The translations under genes were made by a program, and so were the position numbers. Positions 4,766-64,000 of a stretch of DNA of 64,000 bases are shown here, piece after piece. The notes under the pieces are model-generated. The model had not been told where the DNA came from. It saw only the letters and a program-made list of their open reading frames with translations, and did not search any database. Position 1 is the first letter of the stretch; each line of letters starts with the position of its first letter. Source of the DNA: Isoetes taiwanensis. Lineage: Eukaryota; Streptophyta; Lycopodiopsida; Isoetales; Isoetaceae. The stretch covers positions 1,800,447-1,864,446 of the forward strand of contig JAJEKV010000041.1 of assembly GCA_021234155.1 (NCBI GenBank). Reading direction: 5' to 3'.

Positions 4766-5170
4766 TGGGATAAACACCCCTAAGAGCCCATTACATCATA
4801 TAAACGGGCAAGCCCGGACGGGCGAGCCCCTTATTCTGAGGTAATGTGCGAGCAGGGGTGTTTATCCCCTTTAATCGGGCAGGCAAGTTTCCTCATCCAT
4901 AGCTGGCTTATCAGAGGTTCGGGCAGGGTATCGATGGATTATCAGAGGTTTAGCAGGCTGTAGATTGGTTATTAGAGATTTGGAAAACTGTAGATCAATT
5001 ATTAGAGGTTTGGCGGCCTGGATTATCAGGACGCCTGGCTTAGGAGGTTGAATTGTGCATGCCGCTATCTTTTCCTAGGGTTTGCTTGCCTGTTATGTCG
5101 TATCGCTTGCCTGTTATGCCCTATCGCAGAGCAGGAATCAACGGCCAGGAATGGCTTGATCCAAAAGCAT
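4766..5170 (+). mobile_element. hairpin element, family A, copy 1
   Basis: An imperfect palindrome at 4766-4871 has GGGATAAACACCCCT at its left foot and AGGGGTGTTTATCCCC at its right foot. It is followed by TTTAATCGGGCAGGCAAG, CCTCATCCATA, four or five copies of variants of GGATTATCAGAGG (4920-5030), a TTGCCTGTTATGCCCTATC block (duplicated, 5070-5125) and AATCAACGG. The same order recurs at 18.9-19.34 kb and, inverted, at 44.17-44.56 kb. It has no coding capacity. Arms are diverged, so this copy is older than the 44-kb copy. Outer limits are approximate. Confidence 0.6.
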
Positions 5171-7500
5171 GCTGATTAAGGCGGATTTAACCTAAATGCA
5201 AGGTTCTGGGGTAAAACCTTACCTGCAACTGCTTCATTTTTTTCAGCCGTTGCATGACTTGTCCTCTTGCAGCAGTTTTGTCTTTGGTGGTTAAATCAGA
5301 TTGCAATGAGAATGGTTTTTCTTGATTTGTGATGTAAAGGAGGGGCAAAGCCCCACTTTTGGCCTTGCTTCATGGCGCATCCGGGTAGTAGTTTAAGGCT
5401 TAGCCAGAAAGCTCCAGTAGTACCACATACATGGCAAAATTTAGAAGCGCAAAATCCTTCAACTTAATCATATACAACATAAAATCCTTCAACTTTTCGA
5501 GTGCGCTAGGCATTTGATTGCAAAGGCTTATTAAAACACATACCATTTGCGGGAAATGGAGTAAAGGTGCAGATCAAAAAGTTCCCAACTAAACAAATCT
5601 GAGCGAAAGAAGGAAGACAACCTGATATCCACAAATCTCTACAACTAGATTACCTAGTTGAATCTCTCAGGCGAATGCCGAACCCCAAAATTGGAAGGGG
5701 CTTTATTTGCAACCTAGAATGACTCATCCAAAAAACACATACCAAAAGAAAGAAAGAAAAAAGAAAAAAGAAAAGAAAAGGAAAGACACAAGCCAGAACC
5801 ACATGGTTTTCTCTCTCCTCGAAAATTACTAGCTACGAAATGGTGCACTCTAGAAACACTATTTAGAGACGTATATGAATACAATGGCTAAATTATAGCA
5901 AAAGCATATCAAAATACAAAAAACTCTAATGATTATACTAGATAATCTATCTATCTGTCTACCAACCTACCTATCTAGTATCTATTTAAAATCTCTTATG
6001 AATGTGTTGCAACTTTGAGTGTGACTCAACGATGAATGATAAAATGTAAATGCTTTAAATGTTGCCAAATCCTGGCAAAACTGAGGCGTGAGGGTAAACA
6101 CCTTTTGATATGATTCTCAATCCACCCCCATTTTTGCGGCGGGGCCCTCCCGGGGAGGGGGGGTTGGCTTTTTGGTACAAATATACGATTTACTATTTTG
6201 ATTTTAAGAATTCTGGGAGAGAGTTGAGATTTCTAGATAGCATACTTTGGAGCATATGCTCTATTTATAAGATCAAGATTTACCCATTATGAGAGTTATG
6301 CATTATTAAAGATTCTAAATGCTTCCATCTAATTATATTCTCAAATGAAATACCAAAAGAATTTGGTTGCTTTGACCATTATCTTGCATGTACACATGTT
6401 TGTCTGCAACTTTATACATGAACTCTTCAACTTAACTAAGATTCAAGGCAACTTTGCAACACCATCTGTTCCTTTGGTATTGAGTCAAGGTGTTGCAACT
6501 AAAACAATATTGTCCAATACGAAATTTATATTCGACATAATCCAAAAACAAGTACGCTTGGATGTAACACATAAATGTTAACATTTATCTATGGAAAAAG
6601 CCCTACGTCAAGCGAGATTGTGCCAATTGCCATATGTCTTGGCACGAATTCAGAGGTCTAAATTGACCGAGACATCTCGTGGATAAGGAAATTGACTCTA
6701 ACTTGCATGTGGTCCCTAGCTAGATACCTAGAAGCTATTGTTGGTAGTCTAGTCTAGAAAGATGTACGTAGAAAATAGTAGATAAGTCACATGTTAAAGA
6801 AGTTCAGATTGAATTGTAGTTCAAAATATAGCCAAAGTAATGGCATCTTGCCAAGCACCACACACCATTCCATTATTATATTTTTATTTTAAATCTATGT
6901 TTTTTTATAACAACCCCTTCAATTATTTTAGGGATATGGTCTATGGTTTTATGAATTATATCCATATCAAATCCCCCGAGAATCTTCTGTTATTTTGCTA
7001 CATATTAGAGAATTTCTACAATTTATGCCTTTTTCTTCTTCTTTTTCTTGGGTTGATTAGTTTTATTGTATGTATTGTGTATGCCTAGGAACATCCTTAG
7101 ATTGGCCTTTTTCAATGTGAATGCCATCATATGTGAATGCTGTGAGTTAGTTACAGAGGAGTTGTAAGGAATTTCATGTTTATAAAAAGGAATGTCGATA
7201 TATACATGTTTATTTATATAAGGAATTTCAATTTCTAGGAACAAAGCTATGGACCACACTTCTAGCATCTTAAGGAATGGGGACCATTCTGGGCATGGAG
7301 GCTATTAAATTGAATGGGGCATGCTTGGAAAGTCCCATTTTGCAGGAGCCAGCAGTGTTGAAGGGACAAGTTATTATGCCAGTTGTGCCACGTTAGGATA
7401 GGGAAGCCAAAATATAACATATATATATGGTGATGGTGGCAAGGAGGGGTAATGGAACAAAGAGGAGCAGTGGGAGAGGTTTGGAGGGTTTGATTTGGAT
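5171..7500. other. AT-rich intergenic DNA with simple repeats
   Basis: No supported gene. Visible items are a purine AAAG tract (5745-5790), a degenerate CTAT/CTAC microsatellite (5945-5985), a GC-rich C/G block at 6120-6170 and a pyrimidine TTCTTC tract at 7030-7050. Two diverged repeats containing TTTGATTTGGATATA lie just upstream of the OSR gene (about 7488-7555). Confidence 0.5.
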
Positions 7501-7606
7501 ATAGAAAGAGAGGCAATTGGAGAGTGTGGGGAGTTTGATTTGGATATAATATAAAGGGAAGCAGTTGGAGAGTTTTGGAGAGTTTTGGGAGCGTTCTATA
7601 GGCGTT

Positions 7607-7774
7607 ATGGAGAAGAAAGCAGTGGTGGTAGTTTGTTTGGTGGTGGCATTTTTGGTGCTTCCAGCGGTTCTGCCACCTCTCCCTCCTCCCCCTTCCGTCT
7701 TCATAATTTTACCATTCCTTGCGTTTCTTCCTCTCCTTCTGCTCGCTATTCTGCAGCCTCACAACCATGACTAG
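7607..7774 (+). CDS. OSR-domain (ARGOS-like) micro-membrane protein
   Basis: A 55-residue protein starting at the only in-frame ATG; the frame is closed upstream by TAA at 7547. It consists of two hydrophobic segments (about residues 4-21 and 30-48) joined by the proline turn LPPLPPPP at residues 22-29, ending in a short polar tail QPHNHD. This is the hallmark of the OSR domain of plant ARGOS, ARL and OSR1 proteins, ER-membrane proteins that promote organ growth and dampen ethylene signalling. It is shorter than typical flowering-plant members because it lacks the variable N-terminal region; an upstream exon cannot be excluded. It stands alone, with no neighbour in the same process. The identification rests on the motif and the two-helix layout. 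Role in this organism is inferred. Confidence 0.72.
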   Translation: MEKKAVVVVCLVVAFLVLPAVLPPLPPPPSVFIILPFLAFLPLLLLAILQPHNHD

Positions 7775-8351
7775 CTATTTCTTGTCACGATTTTTCATGG
7801 GCACATCCTTTTTGCCCCTGAAACGGAGGAAATCCTTAAGAAAATCCTTGACCCAAAGAGGAAATCCTTGAAGCTTATAATCCATTTTGCTCCCTACTCC
7901 ATATCCTACTCCATAATCTCATCGCTAAGGTTCTGGGTCCCTATTTGATCCTTGAAAAAATATAGAGGACCGAACATGTCTTTCCTGTCATTTTTCGTTT
8001 GCATAGCTTTGGCTTTCTAAAGCTTGATTTTTGTCTGGATAATAGGCATGATTTATATAACAAAGACCACCTAAACTACATGTAACATCAGTGCACATGG
8101 GTGATTATATATACGGCTATTTGTTAACAACTTGTTGCCTTCTTGAAGCCAGTTCTGAATTCATGGGTCCCAAGAACAATTCATCCTTATGAACGTGATT
8201 TATGCTAATACAATTCAATATGTGAAATAGATCGACAAAGGGTTGCAAGCAAAACCCTAGGCTAGATAAAATATCAAAGTCACACACCAGCTACTCTTGT
8301 AAAAGAGCATTCGTTAACAAAGCCCTCAGGAGTTAAAATCTAGCTCAACTA
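7775..8351. other. intergenic, no gene seen
   Basis: 3' flank of the OSR gene. It contains two repeats of GAAATCCTT...AAATCCTTGA at 7825-7875 and otherwise nothing recognisable. Confidence 0.5.
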
Positions 8352-18744: not shown

Positions 18745-19359
18745 AAGAAGGGGATAAGTATCTCCTCGGGCAAGCCAGTTTACTCCATCATTTGTGAGAG
18801 GGGGATGCTTATCCCATTTAACTGGAAGCCAACGAACTCTCACAAATCTGACCTTGATGTCGAACCAAATTATGATCCAGAGCTGGTTTATCAAGCTCCA
18901 TAGCAAGTTTATCATCATCCGAAGGAGGTTTATCATCCGAAGAAGGGGATAAACACCCCTGAGAGCCCATTACCTCGGATAAATGGGCGAGCCCGGAGGG
19001 GGGAGCCCATTTATCCGAGGTAATGGGGCAGCAGTGGGTGTTTATCCCTTTAACCCGCGTGCAAGTCCGCCTCATCCATACCTAGGATCCGAAGCTTCCC
19101 TAGCTCTGCGGTTATCACGACCGGAGGGCCAAAGATGGGTTATCGAGTCCGTGATTCGGTTATCAAGTCCTAGTTTGGATTATCGATCCGTTCGAATCCG
19201 GGGCAAAAAATCCCCGGCCGAATCCGAGGCAACGTTGCAACGCTGGCCGCTCTTCTTCCCTGTCGCTTACCTCTTCTTCCCCTGTTTCCACTTGCCTATT
19301 ATGCCCTATCAGGGGCGGCAATCAATGACGGGGGATGCGCTGACCGCTATCGGTTCGTT
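18745..19359 (+). mobile_element. hairpin element, family A, copy 2 (double)
   Basis: Two related hairpins follow each other. The first (about 18749-18815) starts GAAGAAGGGGATAAG and closes with GCTTATCCCATTTAAC; TTTATCA repeats follow. The second (18943-19050) starts GAAGAAGGGGATAAACACCC and closes GGGTGTTTATCCC, then TTTAACCC, CCTCATCCATACC, four variants of GGTTATCGA/GGATTATCGA, CTTGCCTATTATGCCCTATC and AATCAATG. The order matches copies 1 and 3. The repeated GAAGAAGGGGATAA start marks where the second element joins the first. No ORF of note. Confidence 0.6.
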
Positions 19360-19680
19360 AAGAGGAGGATAACCCTCCTCTTGAGATGATTATGGCAAAT
19401 AACCCTCGGAGGCGGCGGTAGAGAGGGTTATCGCCATAATCATCGAGAGGAGGGTTGGCCTCCTTAAACATCTGGTGGAGGGATTATCACCATCGATTTG
19501 ATAATCTTCTCAATCTCACCGTGGACTTGATAATCACTTTCGGGAGCAATGGATTATCGGAAATAACCTCTCACGCCAAGATGCCGATTTAAGGGTGGAG
19601 ATTGTTGCGATCAAGATAATCCACGACACCGAGATGTTTAAGGAGGCCTAATTCGAGCCCCGCATTATCAAAAAATGCAC
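19360..19680 (+). mobile_element. hairpin element, family B, copy 1
   Basis: A near-perfect palindrome has arms at 19360-19407 and 19422-19465, built from GAGGAGGATAACCCTCCTC and GATTATGGCAAATAACCCTC. It is followed by repeated GATAATC/GGATTATC motifs (about 19493, 19500, 19530, 19553, 19615) and ends with a CTCCTTAAACATC-like sequence inverted near 19635-19650. A related palindrome lies at 46.77-46.85 kb. It abuts family A copy 2 directly. Non-coding. Confidence 0.55.
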
Positions 19681-21577: not shown

Positions 21578-21921
21578 GAGGTGATTTGGGTCTCTCGTAC
21601 TTGCAAGAGTTATCTTCTAATATAATCCTAACGCATTCGATTTGTTGTGATATGGAAGGCTAACAAGGAGCCTATTCCTGACCTGGCAGGGAAGCAGGCT
21701 ACCTGCAGCAGCCACGATTGAAGGAGGTAATTTGGGTCTATTGTACTTGCAAGAATTATCTTCTAATATAATTCTAACCCATTCGATTTTGTTGTGATGT
21801 GGAAGGCTAACAAAGAGCCTATTCCTGGCCTGGCAGGGGAGCAGGCTACCTGCAACAGTCAGGAGCGCTGGGTAGGCACGACTGGCTGCTGCAGGTAGCC
21901 TGATCCCCTGCCAGGCCAGGA
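21578..21921. repeat. 146-bp tandem duplication capped by an inverted repeat
   Basis: Unit 1 (21578-21723) and unit 2 (21724-about 21862) share GGTGATTTGGGTCT, CTTGCAAG, TTATCTTCTAATATAAT and GCCTATTCCTG. The end of unit 2 (21822-21857) pairs with an inverted copy at 21885-21921 (GGCCTGGCAGGGG versus CCCCTGCCAGGCC), forming a hairpin of about 36-bp arms with a 27-base loop. Confidence 0.7.
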
Positions 21922-21999
21922 ATTGGAGATTTGTTCACCTTCCACAACGTCAAGCAAAGAACATGCAACAACGATGAAGATAGAGCAGCAATGACTGGA

Positions 22000-22445
22000 T
22001 GTAACGTTCCTAACCGACATGTCCCTTAATCAACTAGGCAAAACCGACGTTTATGAGTAGTCGCTTCTACCTATTTATGTCGGTGTCTCGGGAACACGAC
22101 ACCAAGATCCACTTGAGTGGTCTCCCATGGGTCCGTTACAATCTCTCCCACTAGAACTATTCTCGTCCTCGAGCATCACAAACCATAGACCACACCATGT
22201 TATAGTGTCCAAGACCAAGTCATGACCTACCATCCAACGGTATTCCAGGTCATACTTGCCCCCATGGAGACTCGAACTCGAGCCCTGCTCTGATACCAAA
22301 TGTAACGTTCCTAACTGACATGCCCTCAACCAACTGGACAAAACCGTCTAGACGTTTATGAGTAGTCGCTTCTACCCATTTATGCTGGTGTCTCAGGAAC
22401 GCAACATCAAGATCCACTTGAGCAGTCTCCCATGGGTCCGTTACC
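22000..22445 (-). mobile_element. TRIM (terminal-repeat retrotransposon in miniature), structurally complete
   Basis: A 446-bp element has two LTRs, 22000-22140 and 22301-22445, both starting TGTAACGTTCCTAAC and ending CCATGGGTCCGTTAC plus one base. The 160-bp internal part has a tRNA-Met primer-binding site on the minus strand (TGGTATCAGAGCAGG, 22284-22298) next to the right LTR and a short purine tract on the minus strand next to the left LTR. The 5-bp target duplication CTGGA is at 21995-21999 and 22446-22450. TRIMs carry no genes and depend on other elements. By eye about a tenth of LTR positions differ, so the insertion is old. It looks whole. Confidence 0.85.
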
Positions 22446-22450
22446 CTGGA

Positions 22451-23285
22451 TCTAGCGGGTTGCCTCAGAATGATATAGCCACTTGCTATTCTTGAAAATA
22501 ATGGCAGTCACATGGCAGCTTCGCATTGGATCATAGCCAAGAATACATATCTACTTTGCTTGACGTATAGTCTCGAGAGGAATAAAGGGGATCCCAGCTG
22601 ATCGTGGGAATTCAAAGAAAGTGGGAGGTAGATTAATTGACCTATCCATGTGTTGAAAGATTTGCATCGTGACAATTTTAGTATCAGAGCCAGGATGGCA
22701 GATTGTAGAGGATATTACAAAGGTGTTGGAAAACTTGTAAATGGTATGCCAAAGGTGTATATCCAGCTGGTGACGGCATGTTATCAGCCTTACAAGACAT
22801 CCATTTGGATGGCGATTTACCAAATTTTGAATTTGAAGCAAAGATAGAGCAACTACAGATGCTAATTCTAGAAATGTTATTCAAGAGCCAGTGACTATCC
22901 AAGATAATTCTCAAGGAGGAGAACCACAACATATTAACGTAAGAACTAGAGTTGTCAAATTCAGATGGAGTTGGGATTGATTTTGCAGAGCTCGATGCTC
23001 CTACTCCTTTTTCTACAATATTTTTTGTCTGAACCTGTCCCTTTTCCTGGCCTGGATTCTTCAACAGCGGCGCCTTTGGCTTCAACGGATGTCCCCTTGG
23101 CTCCATCTATAGTATCTGCCATGGACCCATCATATGATTTCATGGCCTCCTTTTTGGGTTTCGTCATTAGAATAGACCTCAGAAAAAATCGTGGCTCAGA
23201 AAGAGCTCAAGATCGGTTGCCTTTCGCTTGAATAGTTTGGGGCCCTTGTTTGCCTTCGATCTCTCAAATTGGTTGTTTGCTAGCC
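22451..23285. other. decayed repeat DNA
   Basis: Several short frames on both strands, none recognisable. The minus-strand reading at 22965-23165 is lysine/serine-rich. The stretch may be the 5' continuation of the LINE fragment that follows, but the frames are too broken to say. Confidence 0.4.
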
Positions 23286-31150: not shown

Positions 31151-31159
31151 ACCATGTAG

Positions 31160-32080
31160 GGCTCATGATACTTTTACCCTTGATTAGGGTGGATCCGGAG
31201 ATAAATTTATCGGCCCGGGGATCCACGGGTTCCCGACGGTCCGCTCGAGACCCCGCTTCGAGGTACGGCAGACGCCACGTCGGCCCTAGACCATCCGGCC
31301 GTCCAAACCCCCGTGCGGCAATCGCGGCCGTCCCAAGGCTTCATAGATCCCCTCGGGCCCCGATCATCCACGCGATCCTCCCGGATCCCCACTGCCGCTG
31401 GCATTCGTTAATCTACGGACGATATCCGCCGAGGTGATCCCCTCCTCCGGGATCCCGGCACCGGACGGATCCCTCCTCCGGGGATCACCCGCCAGTGGTT
31501 TAACGGCGGACGATATCCGCCGAGGTGATCCCGGCACCCGGACGCCCTCGGGACCCGGTCGTGGCAGCATCCATGGACGATATCCGCCGAGGTGATCCCG
31601 GCACCGGACGCGGATCCCCTCCCGGGATCACCCGCTGGCTGATAACGGCGGACCCTATCCGCCGAGGTCACCCTGGCCGTGGGCCGATAACGGCGGACCC
31701 TATCCGGCCGAGGTGATCCCTCCTCCGGGATCATCCCCCGCGGTCGATAAACCGGGACGCTTATCCGGCCGAGGTAATCCCCTCCTCCGGGATCCCCGGG
31801 CACCCCGGACGGATCCCCTCCTCCGGGATCACCCGGCCGTGGCTGATAACGGCGGACGCTATCCGCCAAGGTGATCCCCTCCTCCGGGATCCCCGGGCAC
31901 CCCGGACGCGGATCCCCTCCTCCGGGATCACCCCTAATGGGTCGATAACGGGCGACGCTATCCGCCGTGGTGATCCCTCCTCCGATCCTCCCCCGGGTCG
32001 ATAACGGCGACGCTGATCCCCTCCTCGGGGATCCCCATTGTCATTTGCCCCGTGGATTCCGGGAGGCCGTAATATGAGAA
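31160..32080 (+). repeat. left long TIR of the MULE, with GC-rich array
   Basis: The outer 270 bp is unique TIR sequence. From about 31420 a higher-order unit of roughly 90-100 bp repeats, each with GGCTGATAACGGCGGAC, TATCCGCC and one or two copies of GATCCCCTCCTCCGGGATC. The last is a short imperfect palindrome with GATCCC/GGGATC arms. Very CpG-rich compared with the flanks. A likely transposase-binding or heterochromatin-forming region (inference). Confidence 0.8.
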
Positions 32081-32515
32081 TGTTTGGACGGTAGAGATAG
32101 CGGCGTGGACTAATCAGTGGTCTAAGTTTGAATTTCGCCGCCCCATGCGGACAAACCAATACAATGAGAACACGCGGACATTCTCCCGAGACCACCCTCC
32201 CGGGATCACCATCCGAGTGTGGTTCATCCCCGGCGCGGTGGATGATGTCGGTAGCGAGGCATGGAGGAGGAGCTTAATGCGGCCGTGGTCGCAAGCAGCC
32301 TATGGACGAAGTTAGAGCGTAAGAGAGAAGAGGTAAGTTCAAGGGCTTTAAAGAAGCCGCCTTGATTTTGTGTTTAATGTTTTATTTCCACCTTAGGGTG
32401 AGATACGTGACCAAAACAAGCTGCATTGTCATTTTTGCTTGTTCTTATTTCCAGTTTAGGGTCGAGATACAGCTCAAACACCTCCAAATGGCCTGTTTGA
32501 TCATGGCAACTTACA

Positions 32516-34810
32516 TTGGTATCCCAAGAGCATTTTGTACCCGATATTCAAGGGGTGGCCAGATGCTTGTTTGGACTTGCTACATCCATACTGCACCGGG
32601 TCCAAGATTTCGCTCTTGGGGAGCAGAGGAATTGTGAAGCACCCCGCCAATTTCTATCTAAGAAGTTCAAGGTGCCCGAGAGAGTGTTAAAAAAGACCCT
32701 ACAAGGATTCCTATGTGACGTTGAAGAGGTATTGGTTTGATACATGTGTTTTTGTTTTAAATCATGAGTCCAAGATTATGTGTTTGCTCAGCCTATGTGT
32801 TTGATTATAAATCTTGCTTTTTAAGTCATTTGAGGTGCTTGTCATTAAGATTACACCTAGTAGATTAATACTAACTTGTAATGCACAATACAGAGATATT
32901 GGTGTTCATATGGACCTCGTGACAAGACAAAGAAACACTCATGTGGTTGAGGAAAGACCACGCCCACCGCACACGAGGGAAAAGGGTTGAGAGGGGGAGA
33001 GGGCATAATGAGGGGCTGCCAGTGCCATTTCACAATCAGGCAACTCTATTTCCTTCCAGAATTTTCACATATCACTTATTATGGGTTTGATCACAAGAAT
33101 ATCCAAGGTTTGCCCTGCCATGGTAGGTTTGTTGACCCATCCTTTGGAGTTAGGTTCAAGCTAGCACCTCGGATCTCACAAGAATTGAGGGAATGGGTAA
33201 GACGTAAGCTTGTCCAATGGCACACGCCACGAGTGTCATGAACATGCATGAAGAGAGGTGGAGGTTGAGACTTGAAGTGAATGGACAGGAAAGCATGTGT
33301 AGGGATGATGTGTTGAAAATTGGGACGGTACAATATTGAAAAGGGAGTTGTTCGTAACACATGGAAGCTACATGAAGATCTTCCCACTAGCATTGACATG
33401 TGGGTTCAACAACATCAAGATTCGGTGTTCATGTATGAGCAAGGAGACTTGTTTCAATTAGGAGTTATGACTCCAATCCAAAGGGAGTCCATGTTGAAAT
33501 TTGGCAAGAACAAAGCCATTTGCATGGACTCTACATTCAAAACAAACGACAAGAGGTGCGGTTCTTCCTCAACTTTTATTGTGTGTTGATTTGATTATTG
33601 TGTATGGTTTAATGCTTGTTCTATCTTTTCACACTTCTCGCCTTTGATGAGTATTCCAATGGTTTACCATTGGCTTACGTTATTACCAATTCTCAAAAGA
33701 GTGGAGCTATAACAAAGTGGATGCAAGCACTAAAGGAGTCCTTATGCCGAGATGGTCCTGATTGGCAACCTTCTTGCATCATTACGATGATGCCCATGCC
33801 GAGATAAAGGCCGTGAAAAAGTAACTTGTCAAACTCTAATCCTTGGAAGCAAATCATAAGTGTACTAACATTGTTTAATTTCATAGGTTTTTCCTAGTGT
33901 GCCCGCAAATTTGCATATGGCACGTGAGGAGGGCTTGGATCAAGTGGTTGCGTAAGAACATCAAGAACAAGGTGGCACGTGAACGACTGCTCAAGGAACT
34001 TGGTTACATTATGTACATGACAGAAGGTCCTCTAGGGGACAATGTGTACGGTGAAGAGTATAGGGAGGCAGTAAGGAGGGAGGCAACTAGAAAATTGGAG
34101 GACTTATTGAGGAAGTATCCTCAATACCCCAAGTTGGCGGCTTACATGAGTAAGGAGTGGACCAAAAACAATTGCCAATGGGTATTGGCTACAAGGATGT
34201 ACCCTCACTCCAACCAAGAGACTAATGCAGCCATAGAGGCATGGCATTGTGCCTTGAAAAGGGCTCGGCATTTCAAAACGAGCACTCCGAGGACGGAGGA
34301 TTGACTGGCTCCTCTACATTCTAACCAACAACGTGGAGACACACATGGCATACATCAGGTATAACTTCTAATCATCATTTGTAACCTATTTTGATTTTGC
34401 AAGAATATAATTCTCTTGTCATCTAGGTCCATGAAGGAAGCAGGGTTTGTGGTGAACACCTCCCGTGAAGAGATAATACAATGTGCCATATTGGGTGCAA
34501 GGAAGATTGCCGATGAACAGGTCACATTCACTAACTTCAAGAAGGTGAGGCGTATGCAAAGTGAACGACTCTAGGGCAAGGACCATACTTTGTGAACGGG
34601 CACACAAGAACTGGGCATGCCGTGGATCGCCCCGGGAGCCAAGGGCAACTTATGTAAGCACCAAGTTAAGGTCATGCAAATGTTGGGCAACCACAGGGAT
34701 CAAGATCTTTTACAGGTGTGCTTGGATCTCAATATGGGTCAATTTGTGGGGCATGGACTACTTGAGGCCATGTGAGGATCATGGGGCCCCTCATGGGAGG
34801 AAACCACATA
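32516..34810 (+). pseudogene. MULE transposase (decayed)
   Basis: The plus-strand pieces in order are an N-terminal region (ELREWVRRKLVQWH, 33170-33240) and GRYNIEKGVVRNTWKLHEDLP with QDSVFMYEQGD (33320-33450). Next is the first catalytic Asp in KAICMDSTFKTND (33510-33550), then LFTLLAFDEYSNGLPLAYVI (33630-33690). An Asp-rich DDAHAEIK segment near 33787-33810 is the likely second Asp. ICIWHVRRAWIKWLRK (33905-33955) is followed by NQETNAAIEAWH (34215-34250), carrying the likely catalytic Glu. A SWIM-type segment GNLCKHQVKVMQMLG is near 34648-34690. Likely introns lie at about 33555-33630 and 33822-33886, and at least three further frame changes or stops interrupt the reading. Not functional as it stands. 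Confidence 0.75.
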
Positions 34811-35439
34811 CCTAAGATGTGGTTGAGATTGTAAGCTTGGACGAAGTCTCCCTCTCAAAAGGAGGCAAGGATTAACCCGATAAGACAAGGTGATCTTTAC
34901 AAGAAGTCATTGCTAGAGTGATGTCAAGGGCGTAAAAAGATCCGTGCATGCTAACCGCAATCGATTCACTCATGAGACAACTCAACACCGGCTTGAAAGA
35001 ATGGATGATGTTGGCCACAGTGCTCTAAATGTAACCATAACATGTATCCCCACTAATGCAAAGGGAAGAGGAGTGTGGTAATAGTTTGGTAAGGTTTGAA
35101 GCCTCTAATAGAAATTGGGAAGAGGAAAGACAAGGAAACCAAGAAGAGTTGGAAGCAAGTTGAGATGGAGGGCCTGTTGTGAGAATGGCATCGTGAGTTT
35201 GTTGTTGTTTAATGCTCATTGACACCTCATGAGCTTCATTGTCTTGTTAATTGTTCAGGTCAAGTTTAGAGTTTTATAAACAGTAGGTATAAATAAATCA
35301 ATATTCACCTATGGACTTATAAATATTGTCAATGTTATCAATGTTTATTAGGAGTTAAATGTTAGGATAATTTAGAACCTTGAGTTAAATGTTTAATGTT
35401 TAGAGTTTAGACAATAGGATAAAAAACTAATAAAAAAAG

Positions 35440-35760
35440 CGTACGTGGGATCCCTCCTCCGGGATCCCGTCCGCTGCCAGAATGTGATCCCCTCCTCCAG
35501 GGATCCCTGTGCGCCCACCTGGTGATCCGTTCTCCAGGGATCCCGCGTCGGCCAAGGTGATGATCCCGCCCTAGGGATCCCCTGCGTGCGCCAACCTGGT
35601 GATCCCGTTCTCCGGGATCCCGCGTCCGCCTGCGTGATGATCCCGTCCTCCGGGATCACAAACTGGTTATAACGGGATCCCCTCCTCCGGGATCACACAC
35701 TGGTTATAACAGATCCCCTCCTGGGATCCGCGGCTTGCGGGTGATCCCGCCCTCCGTGAT
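35440..35760. repeat. internal GATCCC/GGGATC palindrome array 1
   Basis: About ten copies of GATCCC-(C/T)TCC-TCC-GGGATC and variants, spaced roughly 25-45 bases apart, with GGTTATAACGGGATCC near the end. Same motif as in the TIRs but with different spacers, so it is an internal array and not simply a TIR copy. Confidence 0.75.
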
Positions 35761-35976
35761 CACGGGGATTGAATATGTTAGTATATTATTTATCATATCC
35801 CTTAACCATTGACATATGTCTTGGAATAACCATTGAAATATCCCTTAACCATTACTTTTAATAAGCTTTGAAACATTGAACTTAATACAATGGCTTAAAA
35901 CTGACATTCCAATTCGGAATCACTCAATCTACCTCCCGTGACTTTTGCCATGGCTTACGCCTGGGCGCCCTCCTCG

Positions 35977-38100
35977 TTACATCGGCGCACACCCAGGTAG
36001 TCTCCACATCATGTGATCGAAAATATCGCGCGTGGTTGGCTCAGACCCCTCTAGGACATCCCCCGACGATCCTTCTTTCGCAGCCTTCGTGCAAAGATAC
36101 ATTTCCTCAAGCGGGGCTTTTAGGGTGTTGCCTTCCCGCACAATGTCCGTAGCTAGCAAACGCTTTCAAAGCCTTGCCCCGGATAATACACTTCTTCAAT
36201 TCCCAAAGCAATGCCCTATGGGTTGGCCTACTAACGGAGCATAATCAAGAGGCCTAGGGGTCTCCCACGAATTTCCCATTCTCCACGGTCTCGCATGAAG
36301 CATGAGGGGATCATGAAAAGATTAATATGAAAGTAGAACATGAATATGAAGCTTACTTCTGAACGTTTTGATGCCGTCAGGTTGGGCGAGCTCTAGGCCC
36401 ACATCCTCCTGAATTTCATTCAAGTGGACGAGAATATCCTCAAGTGTATGGGCATTGATGGCACTTGCTCAAAGAACTTGTTGTCGAGGGTCCTCACCAT
36501 TTGGCTTGAACAGTAAGCAATTGAACTGAGAGACTGCTACTGAACTCAACTGAGAGACTGCCATTCAACTCAACTTTCTACCAAGATCAAGTAAGGCATG
36601 AGTATATATACACTCATGAGCCAACCGTTGTACTAACCGTTGTACAACGGTTAAGCCATGAATTCAATTTCTAAAGGTAAGACCATAGGGATAAAAGGTT
36701 TTGAGTTTAGCCAAGTTAAGACCATTGAGCCTTGGACCATAGTACCAAAAGTAATAAAAATACGCGGCAGGATCCCTCCTCTCGGGATCCCGTCCCCGCT
36801 ACTAGGGTGATCCCGTCCTCCCGGGATCACATAGTAATTAAACGGGATCCCTCCTCCCGGGATCCCCAAGGTCCGGCCTGTACTTTGGTCCCGTCCTCAG
36901 GGATCACACACTAAGGAAAACGGATCCCTCCTCCCGGATCCCAAGGTCGCCTACTTGGTGATCCCTCCTCCGGGATCACACACCCTTTAAAATAGATCCC
37001 ATCCTCAGGGATCCCCCGCCCCAAGTCGCTTGTTGATCCCGCCCTCGGGATCACAAAGATTCAACATGTTAATATATATTCAAAGATTCAACATATTTAA
37101 CATGTTAATATATGTTAACCATTGAAATTATGAATGTATTATTAACCATTGGAATATGTCTAGGAACAGTGGCAATAATAAACTTTGATGTTGAAACTAT
37201 GGTGGAAGCTTTGAAGCATTATTCTTTGGTGCATTGAGCCATTGCCAAAAGCCAAAATTACATTCAATTGTTCCAGTTTTGACATTGAAGACTTGATGAA
37301 GATATTCACATTCAAGAGAATTACATTCAAGTGTTCCAGATATTCACATTCAAGAAAATATTCACATTCAAAGTTTTTTGAGATATTCACATTCACAAAC
37401 TTGTAGATCTTTACCAGAATGTCAAGGACCATGTACCAGCAAGCGGGTCTGGATCCTGCTATCACCCGTGTCACCCCAGGGTAAGTAAAAGGTGGACTTC
37501 CCTGCTGACCAAGCAATCATGTAGTTTCGAGCATTATCTTGAAGCCCCGACCTCATGCAATCTATGTCTTCTTTTTTGAACCAATCACGGTTAATCAGAA
37601 TCTGCATTAAAACATGAATTTAGCCATGAACTGAAAATTTGCCTAAAAAAAAAGAAACAAGAAACATAAACTCTTCACTGATGTCTTTAACAAATTTCTT
37701 CACATAATTTATGACATACACACCACAAAGAATTATTGTCTTTGTTGGGGAGTTTCTAATGGAATGCGGGGTGCATTATGCAATGCACTTTCCTCATGCC
37801 TCCACCTCTTAAACACGCCCGTGAGGAATGCGCAAGTATGAATAAGAAATTAGCTTCAATCATAATGCAAAAGATTAAATATTTCGAGATAGAGAGGAAT
37901 ACTTACAAGTGTCACAAATTCTGGGTAGATGCATGCAAGGGGCATATGAATCAAGGTGCGTAATGCAAGGGGCGTGGCTTTCCAAGCCGAGCACACGCCA
38001 GCCATCACCACTAAGATGAAAATGCTCCAATCGCCAAAACTGGTGTTGAGGTCGACTTCCGTGTTTAAGGATTAGGTCCATCCGCAAGCCACAAAGAAGA
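35977..38100 (-). pseudogene. second MULE gene, possibly Ulp1-like (spliced or decayed)
   Basis: Minus-strand coding-like pieces occur from high to low coordinate. At 38087-37875: LRMDLILKHGSRPQHQFWRL. At about 37607-37425: LINRDWFKKEDIDCMRSGLQ, then FYLPWG and, in a shifted frame, CWYMVLDILVKIYK. At 36500-36360: INAHTLEDILVHLNEIQED. At 36160-35977: the acidic end GSEPTTRDIFDHMMWRLPG. The order W-x-hydrophobic, LPW, then (H)WYMVLDI is like a Ulp1/C48 cysteine-protease core, in which HW carries the catalytic His; here that His is Cys. KAONASHI-type MULEs are known to carry Ulp1-like genes on the strand opposite or next to the transposase. The assignment is tentative. Confidence 0.35.
36768..37060. 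repeat. internal GATCCC/GGGATC palindrome array 2
   Basis: A second internal cluster of the same short palindrome, with about nine copies, each pair separated by 20-40 bases of unlike sequence, ending at CCGCCCTCGGGATCAC. It lies between pieces of the minus-strand gene, probably in an intron of that gene or upstream of its last exons. Confidence 0.72.
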
Positions 38101-38499
38101 TTTAGTAAAGAATAGTAGGAAATAGTAAAAAACTTGATATAACAGTGAAGAATTCGATTTTACCTCCGTAACTCCGTTAATACAGGAGGTAAACGTATGT
38201 AAACGACTTCCGCAGCGCTAATGGTGCCGTCGCCCGACAAAAACCATCGCGGCCTGGAGGAATCCGGTGGCCCACCCCGAGAGTTAGCGCCCGCACTTGG
38301 ACTCTTCGAAATCGGCTAGTGTGCTCTGCGCCCTCCGGTATCCCAAGGTCCTACGTGGGACGGGATTGGCCACGTACACATCATTAATGGCTTCGTCCGA
38401 ATTTAATTTTAAAATTAAAGTTGTTCTTCGATCCGGGAGGATCTAAGATAAATCACCGGATCTAATGGCTGACAGCAAACCAGCTCGGAGTGCATCTAA

Positions 38500-39323
38500 C
38501 GGCGGAGAATAACTCCCGCCTCCACGTCACCATATCGGGGATCCCGGAGGAGGGGATCGCCACGGCGGATAGCGTCCGCCGTTATCAGCCATTGGGGGGG
38601 TGATCCCGGAGGAGGGGATCCGCGTCCGGGGTGCCCGGGGATCCCGGAGGAGGGATCACCTCACGGATAGCGTCTGGGTTATCGCCCACGGGGTGATCCG
38701 GAGGAGGGGATCACCTACGGATAGGGTCCGCCGTTATCACCCGGCCGGGTGACTCCTACGGATAGGGTCCGCCGTTAGCTCGGCCCACGGGTGATCCCTG
38801 AGGAGGGATCCCGTCGGGGGTGCCCGGGATCCCGGAGGTGGGGATCAACCCGGCGGGATAGGGTCCGGCCGTTATCACCACTACGGGTGATCCCCGGGAG
38901 GAGGGGATCCGCGTCCCGGTGCCGGGGATCCCTGGAGGGGGGGATCACCCTACGGATATCGTCCGGCCAAGCATCAGCCACACGGGTGATCCCGGAGGAG
39001 GGGATCCGCCCCGGGTGCCGGGATCTCTGGAGGGAGGGATGACCTCCTACGGATATCGTCCGTGCTAATGCATCGCCCAATAACCGTGGGGATCCCGGAG
39101 GAGGGGATCGCGTGGATGATCCCGGAGGCGGGGATCTCTGAGGCGCGGACGGCCGCGATTGCACGGGGGTTTGGACGGCCGGGATGGTCTGGGCCGACGT
39201 GGCGTCTGCCGTACCTCAGAACGGGGTCTCCCGAACGGACCCCGTCGAGGGAGACCCGGGATCCCGGAGGCCGGTAAATTTAATTCCGGGATCACCGAAT
39301 CAAGGGTAAAAGTATCCTGAGCC
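38500..39323 (-). repeat. right long TIR of the MULE, with GC-rich array
   Basis: Inverted counterpart of 31160-32080: GGAGGAGGGGATC replaces CCTCCTCC on this strand, with the same GGGTGATCCCGG, GATAGGGTCCGCCGTTATC and GTGCCCGGGGATCCC phrases. The outermost part after 39130 matches the left end almost base for base. The internal array differs in unit number, as expected for tandem repeats that expand and contract. Confidence 0.8.
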
Positions 39324-39844
39324 ACCATGTAGTGCTTGCAATTAAAATTCCTTGAAAGCTACCTTGTTACAAGAATATAACGACAGCACAAGGCCTTGTG
39401 GGTAAGAGGCGGACGCCAAGGGAGCGGTCCACGTGGGCAGACGGCGATGACGGTTATGGTTTAACTAACTTTTCACAAGAGCGGGACACCCGCTTCTTTG
39501 TGCGGAAGCAAAAAACAGAGAGATGTGTCTCTAGGGCTGAAGAGGCGCCATTCCAGCGACATCATGGGTTACGTTTCATCACTCCGTCCATGCGAGCGCC
39601 CTACTCCTCTAAGAACGGAAGTCCGGCATACAGTCTGGTTTTTCTCCTCCTTATGCTAGCGCCTTTTCTGCTTTGGAGCACAACCGCCGGAGCCAAACGG
39701 CCCTTCCTGGGCCGCCCAAATGTCCAAACTCTTACCTTTCTTCCTGGGTCTCAGAGATTTCTTCCTGGGAATTATGGTTGTACTTACTTAACCGCAAATT
39801 TGTCTTGTTTTAGTATTAGATCTTCTATACAGATTTAAGCAGCT
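39324..39844 (+). promoter_or_regulatory. 5' region of the TMEM97-like gene, beginning at the MULE target site
   Basis: Positions 39324-39332 are the right copy of the 9-bp target duplication. The rest should hold the core promoter and 5' UTR of the gene starting at 39845. A plus-strand frame at 39398-39838 is open but has no ATG at its start and I do not recognise it. No clear TATA box was chosen. The upstream sequence was displaced by 8.2 kb when the MULE inserted. Confidence 0.45.
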
Positions 39845-43083: not shown

Positions 43084-43919
43084 TTCGTTAGGGTTTACAG
43101 CAGAAAACAATCTCACACGTAAATGTCTGCGGAGCCCAATTCTGCCTAGACCGCCAATGGCGTGTCGCCACGTGGCTACAATTCTTTTAAAGATTGTTAG
43201 CCACGATCTTGTCTGCTGCGACAAAGCGTCGGCCCACTTGACAACAGAGAAAGTAGAGTAGCGAAATTTTGCCCTAACGTAAAGGAATTGTTGGACTGCC
43301 TTCTGCCACGTCAGCCAACTTTTGTCTGCCACGTCAGCGAAATTTTTTACGAAGCTTTGCAGAATGAATTTTTTCTTCCTCTCTTTTTGCTTCCGGCTAT
43401 GCCGATCGCCCTGGCGCTCGCATGTTTGGCGAGCTTTTAAGCTCTGCATGCATCTGCATGCCCTTTAGGAAGGCTTTAGCATTGCAGCGCCTTCGTTTTT
43501 CCTTGCAGCGCCTCAGTTTTTCGTGATTTTGTGAAGTTTTGGAGCAGCGTGTTCATTTGTGGTAGCAGCGCCTTGATTCTGAGTGTTTTTTACGGCAGCG
43601 CCTTGATTTTGGAGTGTTCTTGGCGGTCCCTTACTCGACTTTCTCTGTTTTAGGTAGTTTTTCAGAGTTTTAGGTTGATTTTTGTACTGTTATCTAATTG
43701 TTGTGGCAATTTCTGGCAGATAATGGCGGATAATGTGTATGTTCTTGAACGTAGAGTAGTTCCGGAGCCTGTAGCATTTTCCATAGCCATTTTGTCTTAC
43801 AAAAATGTACGCCTTTCTTTTGCTGAAGGTTTTTTATTGTATGTAAGCTTATCTAGGTGTCTCTTTAGATATAATCCAGTGTTGGAAAAGAAGGCTGCTA
43901 GTTGAGTAGTGAGAAAGAA
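43084..43919. promoter_or_regulatory. intergenic region between divergent genes (SUVR3 and the plus-strand gene at 43920)
   Basis: The two start codons point away from each other across about 836 bp, so this region probably holds both promoters. The SUVR3 frame stays open upstream to an ATG at 43449 with a basic, low-similarity N-terminus; I treat it as 5' UTR. On the plus side a short frame (ATG 43723, MADNVYVLERRVV) could be an upstream ORF or 5' exon. GCAGCGCC motifs repeat four or five times at 43480-43600. Part of the region (43086-43303) is duplicated at 44.9-45.05 kb. Confidence 0.45.
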
Positions 43920-44168
43920 ATGGACCAAAAGGGTGTACAGCCAGTAAGGGCAGAGCCTGGACAAAATCAGCAGCAGTATAATAATCAAGGACAAGCAACT
44001 GCTGCTCCACCAGCTGGGATGTCACCAACATATCAGTCACAACAGGGAGCTCAAGCATCTTCTTTAAGCCTTGCACAGGTTCCTGGTCAGGCCATGGGCG
44101 CATACTCAGCTCCTCTTAGCTATCAATATCTGCAGCAGCAAGATCAAGAACGATCTTTCTGTTCTTGA
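43920..44168 (+). CDS. glutamine-rich protein, possible NF-YC N-terminus (partial)
   Basis: An 82-residue frame from ATG 43920: MDQKGVQPVRAEPGQNQQQ, then PAGMSPTYQSQQG and SYQYLQQQDQERS, ending at a stop inside the hairpin-element target site. The Q/P/A-rich composition and the LSYQYLQQQ end resemble the region before the histone-fold of plant NF-YC proteins, which usually reads AYQ-x-(Q)n-LQ-FW. The histone-fold itself is not found in the following 10 kb, so the gene is either truncated, broken by the element inserted at 44173, or simply not NF-YC. The identification is weak, as low-complexity sequence is easy to misread. Confidence 0.3.
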   Translation: MDQKGVQPVRAEPGQNQQQYNNQGQATAAPPAGMSPTYQSQQGAQASSLSLAQVPGQAMGAYSAPLSYQYLQQQDQERSFCS

Positions 44169-44172
44169 TCTT

Positions 44173-44559
44173 TAACCGGCAGGCTTTCCAATCCCAGCGA
44201 TGTCCTCCGTTGATTGAAGCCTTGTGATAGGGCGTAACAGGCACCCAACCCACCCCAAATGGATGTAGAGGCAGCTGAAAACGTGGAAACAGGCAGCTTT
44301 AGCATCGGATTCATCCTCGGAGCTGATAATCCAGGTCTGGAAGATGCCTGTGATAATCCAGCTGTGGGAGCTGATAATCGAGCTATGGGTGACGATAATC
44401 GAGCTGTGGGTGCAGGAATGGGTGAGGAAACTTTGCCTGCCGGTTAAAGGGGATAAACACCCCTGCTTGCCCCTTACAGCAGATAAACAGACAGGCTCGC
44501 CCCTCCGGGCTCGCCTGTTTATCTGCTGTAAGGGGCAAGCAGGGGTGTTTATCCCCTTC
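44173..44559 (-). mobile_element. hairpin element, family A, copy 3 (youngest, with target duplication)
   Basis: This 387-bp element is flanked by an 11-bp direct repeat TTCTTGATCTT (44162-44172 and 44560-44570). One end carries a perfect 44-bp-arm hairpin (44447-44490 with 44515-44558, 24-base loop containing GGCTCGCC twice). The other end begins TAACCGGCAGGC, and TTTAACCGGCAGGC is found inverted just inside the hairpin (about 44435-44448), so the core is itself bounded by an inverted pair. Between them are GATAATCGAGC/GATAATCCAG motifs (four copies) and GATAGGGCGTAACAGGCACC, matching copies 1 and 2 in reverse. No ORF. The 11-bp duplication is in the range of Mutator-type or similar insertion; the family is unknown to me. 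Confidence 0.7.
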
Positions 44560-44570
44560 TTCTTGATCTT

Positions 44571-44906
44571 ACGTTGTTGATCTTTACGTTCTTGAATGGA
44601 AATCTTGAACTGAAGTGATTTTACTGTGTCATTGATGATTTTTTACTAACCTTTCTACTATTTTTACTGTGGCATTCTGCAAATTTTACTATTCATTCTG
44701 ATAAGTTTTACTAGCCATTCTGATAATTTTACTTTTCATTCTGATAATTTTGGAATACTTTCAAGATAAAGTTCCAGTTAAAAATAACTTACAGTAAAAA
44801 ATAACTTTGAGAAGACAATAACTTGGACTCAAAAAAAAAGTTTAGTGTAATTCCCGGGTTAGAATCTCTGCCACGTGTCACAAGATGATTGGATACGGGA
44901 GCAGAA
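44571..44906. other. AT-rich spacer with TTTTACT repeats
   Basis: Short repeats of TTTTACT(A/T) and ATTCTGATAATTTTAC occur at 44630-44760. No gene seen. Confidence 0.5.
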
Positions 44907-45052
44907 GGCAGTCCAACATTCCTTTACGTTAGGGTTTACAGCAGAAAACAATCTCACACGTAAATGTAAGGTATCTACAATTCTGCCTGGACCGGGCTAC
45001 AATTCTTTTAAAGATTGTTAGCCACGATCTTGTCTGCTGCGACAAAATTTTT
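44907..45052. repeat. rearranged partial copy of the SUVR3 5' region
   Basis: 44936-45049 matches 43086-43222 in direct orientation (TAGGGTTTACAGCAGAAAAC, CTACAATTCTTTTAAAGATT, GATCTTGTCTGCTGCGACAA), with an internal gap of about 25-30 bases. 44909-44937 matches 43275-43303 in inverted orientation (GCAGAAGGCAGTCCAACA). The two parts join at CGTTAGGG, which occurs at both donor sites. Non-coding here. Confidence 0.8.
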
Positions 45053-45432
45053 TACCATGCCGTTCTATTGCAGCAAAAAATTTACCCGGCGATTCAGCAG
45101 TTTTACCCCTGATTCCGCCCAACATTCTGCCAATTTTACATAGTAGGCAATAATGGTTAGTTTCTGAAGAAGCCCAGTCTTGGGATTTACTCGGATCCTT
45201 CACAGCTGGTTTCTGAAGAAGAGGGATAATGGCTGCGGGATTGATATAATGCATTTGTATCTTTTGTTTCTTGATTCGATTTTACTCGATATTTGCTCCT
45301 ATTCCCTCTCCAGATTTAAGGTAAGTGTTGTAAGATTTAAAAAGGCAGAAAAAATTGAAGGTTATGAAGGCACAATTCTAATGAGGATCCCTGTGGAAAA
45401 GTTTTTGGCAGAAAAGTCTTTGGAAAAGTTAA
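45053..45432. other. no recognisable gene
   Basis: Two copies of TTTCTGAAGAAG (45158, 45210) occur near TTCACAGCTGG. Otherwise nothing is recognised. Confidence 0.45.
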
Positions 45433-45815
45433 GGGTGCATCCCCATTAGGTCGTTATCCAGGCTGACTTTGCCACATGGCAAACCCAGCCAGGAAAAAAA
45501 GCATTCCCATTACCTTTAAGGCACCGGAGTTCTGCGGACGAGTCCAGGGCACCTTCCCTTTCTTCAGAAGTCCTCAAGGACTTCCGAATTGCCCAAGTCA
45601 GGCCTTGGGTTTGTCTTCTAGCAAGCTGGATTTGTCCTCTAGCAACCTGGGTTTGTCTTGTAGCCCAGTGCCGGTTTGTCCTGTGGCTCAATGCAATCAG
45701 CCAAGAAAATAGAAGCTCAGCAACAGTAATGGGAATGGTATGAGCCCTAACAGATTGTAGGAACTCAGTTCCGATGCCATGGCAAACTCGGTTTCTGTAT
45801 AATGGGGATGCACCC
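45433..45815. mobile_element. PIF/Harbinger-type (Tourist-like) MITE
   Basis: Perfect terminal inverted repeats GGGTGCATCCCCATTA (45433-45448, and reversed at 45800-45815) enclose 383 bp. A 3-bp TAA target duplication is at 45430-45432 and 45816-45818, the TWA site typical of PIF/Harbinger. A GGG-start TIR also fits. There is no transposase; it would need an element such as a Harbinger in trans, although the Harbinger at 56.8-61.5 kb has a different TIR and is not its obvious partner. Confidence 0.85.
45607..45690. repeat. 21-bp tandem repeat inside the MITE
   Basis: Units GGGTTTGTCTTCTAGCAAG.. at 45607, 45628 and 45649 are each 21 bases, with a fourth degenerate unit (CGGTTTGTCCTGTGGCTC) near 45672. 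Units differ at several positions. Confidence 0.75.
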
Positions 45816-45818
45816 TAA

Positions 45819-46764
45819 GATTTGTCTACGATAGAGTTTTATCCGGTCCCTTTTAGGGCTTCAAACTCGGCGGCTACGATGCCCCTCTCATCTACAGTAT
45901 TTTATTTTTTCATTTTCTTCTTTTCAAAAGCAGGCAATAATGTTTTTCATGCTTGAACTGGCATAGGTTTTTTATTTACTTGGATCCTTAAATCGCGGTC
46001 CTTGCAAGTTCTATCAATCCCACCGTTGGATCAAGGTAAGCTTATTTTCCATAATCATCAGAATATTCGTTTTTTAAAGAATATTCTAGTGATTCTCCTG
46101 ATAATCCACGAACATTCTTTTCAAGATACTGTCGAAGATTGTGGCATAGCTCTGTTCCAGCATATCTGTTCCTGCATAAGTGTACCTTGTTTTGAACCAT
46201 GTTTTTCCATACAATATAATGGGCCTTTTGCTCTTAAGGCCTGTGAAAAAAATTGGCAAAATACCCCTTAGAAAGGGCTGTTCAATCAGGGACCAAAGCC
46301 ATGCCGAAAAAAGCCGAAAAAAACTATGGTTATGGCTATGGAATCGGAGTGAATAAGCTCGAAGTCGTTTACAGAGGTTGGATGTGGTTGGAAAAAGAAT
46401 GCAGGGCAGATTATGCTGCAAAAATGCAAAAGCCCAGCAAAGGAGGCTCCAATTGTTTGATTTTGTAGATCTGGGACACTTTTTCTTTGCGACCGCTTCA
46501 TATCCTTCCAAAATCATCTTCTTCATTTCGTTTCAGGAAAAACTCGGACCACAGGCTTGAACCCAAACAGGATGCCGAGGAGTCTAAACCCACCTGGAGT
46601 AATGTTGTTGCAACTCCATAGCTTCAGAGATGGTGGTCCATTCAGTGCAGCATTTTGGATGCAAAAAAAGAAGCCAAATACAAAGGAATTGCGAGAAACA
46701 ACAAACTGGTAACAGCGGCAAAACAAACTTTCTTAAGAACTTGCTTGGACCTCAATTTAAGGGA
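45819..46764. other. no recognisable gene
   Basis: Short frames on both strands only. A minus-strand frame at 46086-46526 has no similarity that I recognise and no supporting features. Confidence 0.45.
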
Positions 46765-46851
46765 AGTCAACCCTCCCCTCTCGGGGATTATGGCAATAAC
46801 CCTCTCGGCCTCCCGACCTCGAGGCATAATCCCCTTGAGGGAGGGTTAACC
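46765..46851. mobile_element. hairpin element, family B, copy 2
   Basis: Arms GTCAACCCTCCCCTCTCGGG.. (from 46766) and the reverse ..CCCTTGAGGGAGGGTTAAC (to about 46850) enclose GGCAATAACCCTCTCGG and CCTCGAGGCATAATCC. Shares GATTATGGCAA-TAACCCTC with copy 1 at 19.4 kb. No GGATTATC tail was seen beside it, so only the hairpin part may be present. Confidence 0.55.

Positions 46852-61517: not shown

Positions 61518-64000
<2,483 letters not shown>

Follow-up and report, generated by a model that had tools for sequence, protein, structure and literature searches.

Two families of short hairpin elements in Isoetes taiwanensis with features of non-autonomous rolling-circle transposons

Results

Hairpin elements in the window

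We analyzed a 64-kb stretch of the Isoetes taiwanensis genome (C1047:1800447-1864446, hereafter the window; the genome comprises 1.658 Gb in 1,110 contigs), which contains copies of two families of short, non-coding elements, A (~390 bp) and B (~284 bp), that carry a long hairpin at the 3' end and probably move by a rolling-circle mechanism. When the copies were sorted into families by profile searches, the window was found to hold three copies of family A (A1, A2 and A3), two of family B (B1 and B2) and a truncated distant relative of A, designated C. The original prediction, made from the letters of the window, had placed hairpin elements at five loci; these loci are all real, but the copies number six. 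It had also described the palindromes of the two families as different, and A and B are indeed just 47-57% alike in their hairpin arms. The copies, and the parts of the best-preserved one, are as follows.

4767-5179, minus strand: A1, decayed family A copy, 413 bp; hairpin at 4767-4868
18747-18941, minus strand: C, 5'-truncated distant relative of A with a degenerate hairpin and GGTTTATC motifs; 3' end CCCCTTC as in A
18942-19361, minus strand: A2, family A, 420 bp; 3' hairpin at about 18943-19050
19362-19641, minus strand: B1, family B, 280 bp; 3' hairpin at 19363-19464
44172-44559, plus strand: A3, complete family A element, 388 bp, the best-preserved copy in the window; ends set by 18 other genome copies
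44172-44184, plus strand: 5' inverted repeat of A3, TTAACCGGCAGGC, at the extreme 5' end
44325-44400, plus strand: array of four GATAATC motifs in A3 (0.06 expected; 0 of 2000 shuffles reached four)
44435-44447, minus strand: 3' inverted repeat of A3, immediately upstream of the hairpin
44447-44558, plus strand: 3' terminal hairpin of A3, with 53-nt arms, 6 nt between them and 92% complementarity
46757-46856, plus strand: B2, 3' hairpin end of family B, without body and without 5' end

Read from 5' to 3', both families begin with an inverted repeat at base 1. Behind it come a body holding GATAATC motifs, a second, inverted copy of that repeat, the hairpin and a pyrimidine end. The repeat at base 1 was TTAACCGGCAGGC in A, with a few variants, and TTAAACATCT in B, and the pairs of ends were TTAACCGG/CCCCTTC and TTAAACATC/CCTCCTC, respectively. 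The hairpin, mostly 100-112 nt long, lay directly behind the inner inverted repeat. What had originally been called a fixed tail of family A is actually the 5' part of the element, the hairpin being its 3' end.

The other copies in the window retained these features to differing degrees. A1 has lost the final bases of its 3' end, and of its repeat pair just TTAATC is still common to both members. In A2, the 5' and inner repeats have diverged and showed no significant match to each other. C was detected with an E value of 0.0053 in one comparison and of 1.4e-9 against the family A profile. Further, C, A2 and B1 were arranged head to tail: the 3' end of B1 exactly abutted the 5' end of A2, and the 3' end of A2 abutted C.

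Genome copies share ends, repeats and internal boundaries

When the whole genome was searched with A3, as the original prediction had proposed, 623 first-look candidates were obtained; 40 were scored, with other copies reaching 96% identity over almost their entire length. For the alignment of family A, 20 places were fetched, of which 17 yielded 18 clean copies, making 19 with A3; the broken copies L022, L023 and L027 were left out. In the alignment, all 19 copies started and ended at one and the same base position. The 13-bp start repeat, at offset 0 from the 5' end, recurred inverted right before the hairpin in 17 of them, at 90-149 nt from the 3' end (108 nt in nine copies). Beyond the 3' end, the sequence was TT in 12 of the 19 copies, AT in six and TC in one, and four of the TT dinucleotides were the start of a next copy.

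The corresponding search for family B gave 348 first-look candidates. The best 40 were scored, including B1, and the other 39 were near full length and 87-93% identical to B1. All 20 of these 39 copies that were fetched began with TTAA[AG]CATCTGG and ended in CCTCCTC (20/20; the 5' end of L085 was read from the alignment). Because these ends were common to the 20 fetched copies, the bounds of B1 were set from 19641 to 19362. The aligned copies contained the inverted repeat TTAAACATCTGGTG and its inverse ahead of the hairpin, and most of the fetched copies differed from one another at few positions only, as young copies do. The body met the hairpin at a constant position in the 19 aligned A copies, and likewise in the 21 aligned rows of B. 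The aligned genome copies of the elements thus keep their order of parts and common boundaries, the lack of which the original prediction had named as the case against its proposal.

We also counted the exact termini of family A genome-wide. The exact 16-base 5' end occurred at 152 places and the exact 16-base 3' end at 254, and the reversed patterns occurred at 0 places each. An excess of exact 3' ends (254 versus 152) is as truncation at the 5' side would give; C, without its 5' part, and B2, a hairpin alone, are in line with this excess. Among the first 100 of the 152 A 5' ends listed, nine without a nearby exact 3' end were picked by eye and 451 bases of each were fetched. Eight of these, which represent subfamilies, reached a hairpin, one (L090) was rearranged, and none of the nine looked autonomous within these 451 bases. 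Locus L089 (1.7 kb), which has A-like ends, appeared by eye to contain a nested DNA transposon.

Head-to-tail arrangement was not confined to the window. In seven of 38 fetched A loci, CCCCTTC was followed directly by the TTAACC of a next copy. About five of these seven junctions are independent, since L023 and L034 share their flanks and the flanks of L012 and L030 are similar.

Target site

The target was determined from 30 sites, namely those of 12 single A copies and 18 B copies. A3, the tandem copies L011, L012, L015a, L015b, L019 and L029, and two B copies, L084, whose flanks equal those of L081, and L085, whose 5' end the script had missed, were left out of this count. Insertions had occurred at YYC^WT[AC], with Y at -2 in 30/30 sites and at -1 in 29/30, W at +1 in 29/30, T at +2 in 29/30 and A or C at +3 in 30/30. 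There was no target duplication (0 nt) at 26 of the 30 sites; three sites had 1 nt and one had 3 nt. This target resembles the junction of the element's own 3' and 5' ends, CTTC joined to TTAA, which would be expected if one nuclease cut the donor ends and the target alike.

One paralogous empty site was found. The joined flanks of the B copy L083 matched without a gap at 35 of 40 bases, 26 to the left and 14 to the right of the joint, and the match lay within a copy of another hairpin element (97741-97780 in window coordinates, outside the window). It was the sole informative spanning match when 35 joined sites were compared with the sequence collected here, the other 18 rows being tandem, related or low-complexity matches.

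The 3' hairpin and the GATAATC motifs

The hairpins folded as DNA far more stably than 200 shuffles, with z-scores of -17.7 at 44.4 kb, -11.3 at 18.9 kb, -8.6 at 19.4 kb, -6.5 at 4.8 kb and -4.75 at 46.8 kb; the degenerate hairpin of C at 18.75 kb was not significant (z = -1.1). Stems of 42-59 pairs were formed by 12 of 15 folded hairpins, L093 formed 27 pairs, and two others had been wrongly cut.

Among the three A hairpins of the window, six of 44 pairs were changed on both sides with pairing kept, a number reached by one of 500 shuffles. When nine hairpins were compared, 14 of 51 pairs were changed on both sides; the shuffle mean was 6.2 and 0 of 500 shuffles were as high. As a control, sliding the partners by 1-3 columns left 1-4 such pairs. 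These nine came from 16 hairpins drawn up, and the seven left unused were almost identical to another one, carried an expansion or a deletion, or were broken, short or cut in the wrong place; A1, also wrongly cut among the 16, served as a window reference in this alignment. Further, in some subfamilies that share the A 5' end, the hairpin was of a different sequence, with GGGGTTAATCCCC or GGGCTTCACCTCCCC as its basis, but was still palindromic and still folded. Selection on the structure would explain the covariation, as would a process that copies one arm anew from its partner.

GATTATC/GATAATC occurred 21 times in the 64 kb, and 12 of these occurrences fell within the 1,831 bases of the elements, versus 0.6 expected. 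The spaced runs of GATAATC noticed originally were confirmed in this way, the motif being enriched in the bodies of both A and B. The strict motif G[AG]TTATC was absent from the body of C, which carried GGTTTATC instead.

Search for a coding partner

Matches to the Pfam family Helitron_like_N were abundant: all 150 of the best 150 among 1,813 first-look candidates scored above the Pfam cut-off (150/150). We compared these 150 Rep loci by eye with the first 100 of the 152 A 5' ends, the first 100 of the 254 A 3' ends and the scored A and B copies, and 0 of the 150 had any of these listed ends or copies closer than 30 kb. The coding element with the same hairpin and GATAATC ends that the original prediction had suggested looking for was not found in this limited search; the Rep partner may lie among the loci not listed.

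Other hairpin families and neighbouring features

Hairpins were also sought de novo in 264 contiguous kb, that is, the window and 100 kb on each side. Ten were detected, each on both strands; A1 was not picked up. Adjacent inverted repeats of at least 10 nt were present at A3, at B1 and at loci at 21.8, 53.3, 80.9 and 97.7 kb, but not at A2. In a random control, one of 20 positions had such a repeat at 10 nt and none at 11. At 53.3, 97.7 and 21.8 kb, the inverted repeat at the hairpin foot was matched 295-620 bases upstream, with sequences and ends unlike those of A and B. One of these loci is a different family with the same layout.

53262-53935, minus strand: 24-nt terminal repeat, body, inverted repeat and 119-nt hairpin

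This element and the one at 97651-98063 (outside the window) apparently represent related families, their hairpins sharing CCATTCTGGCA and TACATTG just after the hairpin. At 21798-22566, a hairpin with 65-nt arms had its adjacent 13-nt inverted repeat 620 bases off; its body contains copies of a repeat that recurs at 9.8, 24.5 and 25.5 kb, and it is perhaps a small long terminal repeat (LTR) element or a terminal-repeat retrotransposon in miniature (TRIM). The 80.9-kb locus was not counted as having the same layout: it is a palindromic tandem repeat, an array at 80530-81110 (window coordinates, outside the window) of units around CTCGACTCGCGAGTCGAG.

An 8.2-kb Mutator-like element occupies 31151-39332. 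Its 20-nt terminal repeats, GGCTCA(T/G)GATACTTTTACCC, are at 31160-31179 and 39304-39323, and the element (31160-39323) is bounded by an exact 9-bp duplication, ACCATGTAG. Its subterminal arrays, which are large, GC-rich and inverted, are made up of GATAACGGCGGACGCTATCC and GATCCC..GGGATC units, and two more GATCCC-TCCTCC-GGGATC blocks around ~1 kb at 35440-37070 look like a nested or duplicated end region. No transposase was named when five pieces of the element were compared with Pfam; broken transposase-like frames are present at 32.9-34.6 kb. Four long open reading frames of the window matched PNGase A (strongly), a Myb/SANT-like family and, weakly and below the cut-off, pre-SET and reverse transcriptase in Pfam. 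The remnant of a reverse transcriptase of the long interspersed nuclear element type (weak RVT_1 match) is at 61694-62902, and long AG/TG dinucleotide runs are at 56.5-56.8, 61.5 and 62.9-63.1 kb.

Discussion

Non-autonomous rolling-circle transposition

The present results support the conclusion that A and B are mobile and non-coding. We consider that they are non-autonomous rolling-circle transposons working like Helitron2/HINE elements, and put the probability of this reading at about 0.77. In such a mechanism, an HUH-type Rep-helicase encoded elsewhere in the genome would nick the junction of host and 5' end at YYC^TTAA, and one strand would be peeled off from TTAA. The short inverted repeats, one at base 1 and one directly ahead of the hairpin, would serve as marks of the two ends; the long 3' hairpin would act as the terminator, so that transfer would end just past it (CCCCTTC^ or CCTCCTC^). 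Integration of the strand or circle at a new YYC^WT site would follow. Head-to-tail copies could arise if the 5' junction of a resident copy were a preferred target or if termination were missed. The GATAATC motifs are the best candidates for iteron-like Rep-loading sites. That one machinery serves both families, as the original prediction had proposed, is likely, given the shared 5' TTAA, the 3' pyrimidine end, the layout and the near-identical target; recognition of GATAATC by its protein, also part of that proposal, is a conjecture.

Several observations weigh against this interpretation. The repeat pair was unrecognisable in the A copies L017 and L026 and, by score, also in A1 and A2. The ratio of 254 to 152 depends on the patterns chosen, and some hairpins fit the 3' pattern at both feet. 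No 5' hairpin was significant at the six 5' ends folded (z = -1.40, -1.60, -0.53, -0.53, -1.18 and -0.36). The B copy L085 has host AA, not WT, past its 3' end, an exception at +2. The empty site is a single one, short and 88% identical, and our limited search yielded no element that combines a Rep-helicase with the ends of A or B. Finally, the ends of A3 carry a perfect 10-nt direct repeat, ttcttgatct, as in a cut-and-paste insertion. We take this repeat as an exception, not the rule, because the flank of A3 is a 15-bp minisatellite containing the same word and because variable 7-19-bp duplications are reported for three Helitron2 families in PMC3627910.

Direct and inverted copies of TTCTTGATCTT crowd both flanks of A3 (44139-44171 and 44560-44600), with one inverted pair on the left, and a glutamine-rich open frame lies beside them; the site looks repeatedly repaired.

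Alternative explanations

The direct repeat at A3 also speaks for a cut-and-paste origin. A and B could be TIR or foldback elements of the Mutator type: the inverted repeat would be a terminal inverted repeat (TIR), the hairpin would extend one end as a foldback, and GATAATC would be the site of a transposase. Inverted repeats do flank the body in A3 and B1, and the same window contains the 8.2-kb Mutator-like element, which has subterminal arrays and is bounded by a duplication of 9 bp. Against this, 26 of the 30 other sites lack a duplication and none exceeds 3 nt, the ends are asymmetrical (TTAACC versus CCCCTTC), and neither the exact head-to-tail junctions nor a target resembling the junction of 3' and 5' ends would be expected. 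We regard this origin as improbable. It is still less probable that the hairpins are independent foldback miniature inverted-repeat transposable elements (MITEs) that stand beside the arrays by chance. B2, a hairpin without a body, and the excess of exact 3' ends would suit this idea, but lone hairpins equally fit 5'-truncated rolling-circle copies, and the constant body-hairpin joint in 19 A copies and 21 B rows argues against it. That the hairpins are unrelated local inverted duplications, with the GATAATC enrichment arising by chance, is practically negligible: although the arms of A1 and A2 are just 76% complementary, the same exact A ends recur at 152 and 254 places, 39 further B copies exist, and pairs have changed on both sides in a compensating manner.

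A different question is whether A and B form a rolling-circle lineage of their own, with a Rep outside both Helitron1 and Helitron2/Helentron. The YYC^WT target, the long 3' hairpin and the lack of a significant 5' hairpin are unlike the definitions published in PMC4067079, PMC5148889 and PMC3627910, but the layout is otherwise that of Helitron2/HINE and no Rep sequence is tied to the elements; such a lineage seems unlikely. The most far-reaching reading would be a separate class of rolling-circle transposons, marked by TTAA 5' ends, a 3' hairpin that is long and covaries, a GATAATC iteron array and a target, YYC^WT, that repeats the junction of the circle. It would be mobilised in trans by a Rep distinct from those of Helitron1 and Helitron2, would form head-to-tail chains of mixed families and would share its layout with further families within 264 kb. 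We consider such a class unlikely.

Membership of other groups was also considered and rejected. Mutator-like elements make target duplications of 8-11 bp, whereas the longest among the 30 sites was 3 nt and 26 had 0 nt, A3 (10 nt) excepted. piggyBac elements duplicate TTAA; here, only the 5' end of the element has TTAA, the host side of the 3' end being TT, AT or TC in A. A short interspersed nuclear element (SINE) was considered since a tRNA-like B box was seen by eye in A2, but no A tail was seen. A microRNA was rejected likewise: an Rfam search of the window at the gathering threshold gave 0 matches, and the B1 hairpin matched mir-879 only below threshold (34.4 bits versus a gathering score of 90), which was taken as a generic hairpin match. 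A scan of IMG/VR with a 20-base A motif returned one contig that had 22 bases in common with A1 and nothing else, which we took as chance.

Comparison with known systems

The original prediction knew of no named family with this layout. This was too strong: Helitron2 and HINE elements, as far as they are described in the two papers discussed here, share the order of parts, with several measured features differing. According to the account of Helitron2 termini in PMC3627910 (Bao and Jurka 2013), an inverted repeat of 8-15 bp lies 0-2 bp from the 5' end and recurs inverted directly upstream of the 3' hairpin, the 5' end is T, there is usually no target duplication, and copies are 5'-truncated with overabundant 3' ends. 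A and B likewise have an end repeat with its inverse before the 3' hairpin, a 5' T, mostly no duplication, and copies cut short at the 5' side with an excess of 3' ends. In that account, however, the 3' repeat is ~20-30 bp from the end, as against mostly 108 nt in A, where it is farther off because the hairpin is far longer; a 5'-terminal hairpin includes the 5' repeat, whereas none was significant here; and the target is TTTT^T/C, not YYC^WT[AC]. Since the distance of the 3' repeat, the 5' hairpin and the target are not as defined there, we do not file A and B as members of Helitron2 but regard them as a variant of the Helitron2/HINE kind. They differ further in their GATAATC array.

HINE/DINE-1 elements are non-autonomous Helentrons, which PMC4067079 characterizes as non-coding, with 12-15-bp subterminal repeats, central or tandem repeats, a 3' palindrome, a T-rich target and no target modification. 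A and B resemble them in being non-coding and in having subterminal inverted repeats, central or tandem repeats, a 3' palindrome, a T-rich target and, save for the 10-nt repeat of A3, no target modification. The palindromes given in that description are 5-10 bp, in contrast to 42-59 pairs in 12 of our 15 folded hairpins, and the subterminal repeat is ~38-60 bp from the 3' end, in contrast to 108 nt in nine of 17 A copies. Further, the families it describes are from arthropods and an oomycete, whereas the host here is a plant. Among open-licence PMC papers we found no description of families A and B or of a long-hairpin Helitron2 of plants. The suffix SMo in element names presumably stands for the lycophyte Selaginella. 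If so, the Helitron2 element named Helitron-5_SMo in PMC3627910 makes it probable that Helitron2 is known from land plants.

With Mutator-like and foldback elements, A and B share subterminal arrays and inverted repeats; the Mutator-like element of the window is symmetrical at its ends and cleanly flanked by a 9-bp duplication, whereas A and B are asymmetrical and mostly lack a duplication. Pipelines that seek TC...CTRR ends, or TIRs with duplications, are expected to miss A and B or to misfile them as foldback MITEs. With Helitron1, A and B share a hairpin near the 3' end and the lack of a target duplication; as Helitron1 is defined in PMC4067079 and PMC5148889, it has 5'-TC and CTRR-3' ends and inserts between A and T, in contrast to TTAA...CTTC or TTAA...CTC ends, insertion at Y^WT and the inverted repeats in A and B.

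The positions of Helitron-type ends and the function of the 3' hairpin are known from few experimental systems. One is Helraiser, a bat Helitron, whose 3' hairpin is reported in PMC4778049 to act as a transposition terminator in experiments. This is the model that we apply to A and B, although the palindrome of Helraiser is 19 bp and its ends are TC and CTAG in that report. In A and B, the ends, the target and the hairpin are fixed to the base, young copies are present, and subfamilies have exchanged the hairpin sequence while keeping its pairing. These families render the terminator role of the hairpin, the proposed iteron role of GATAATC and the origin of head-to-tail copies directly testable.

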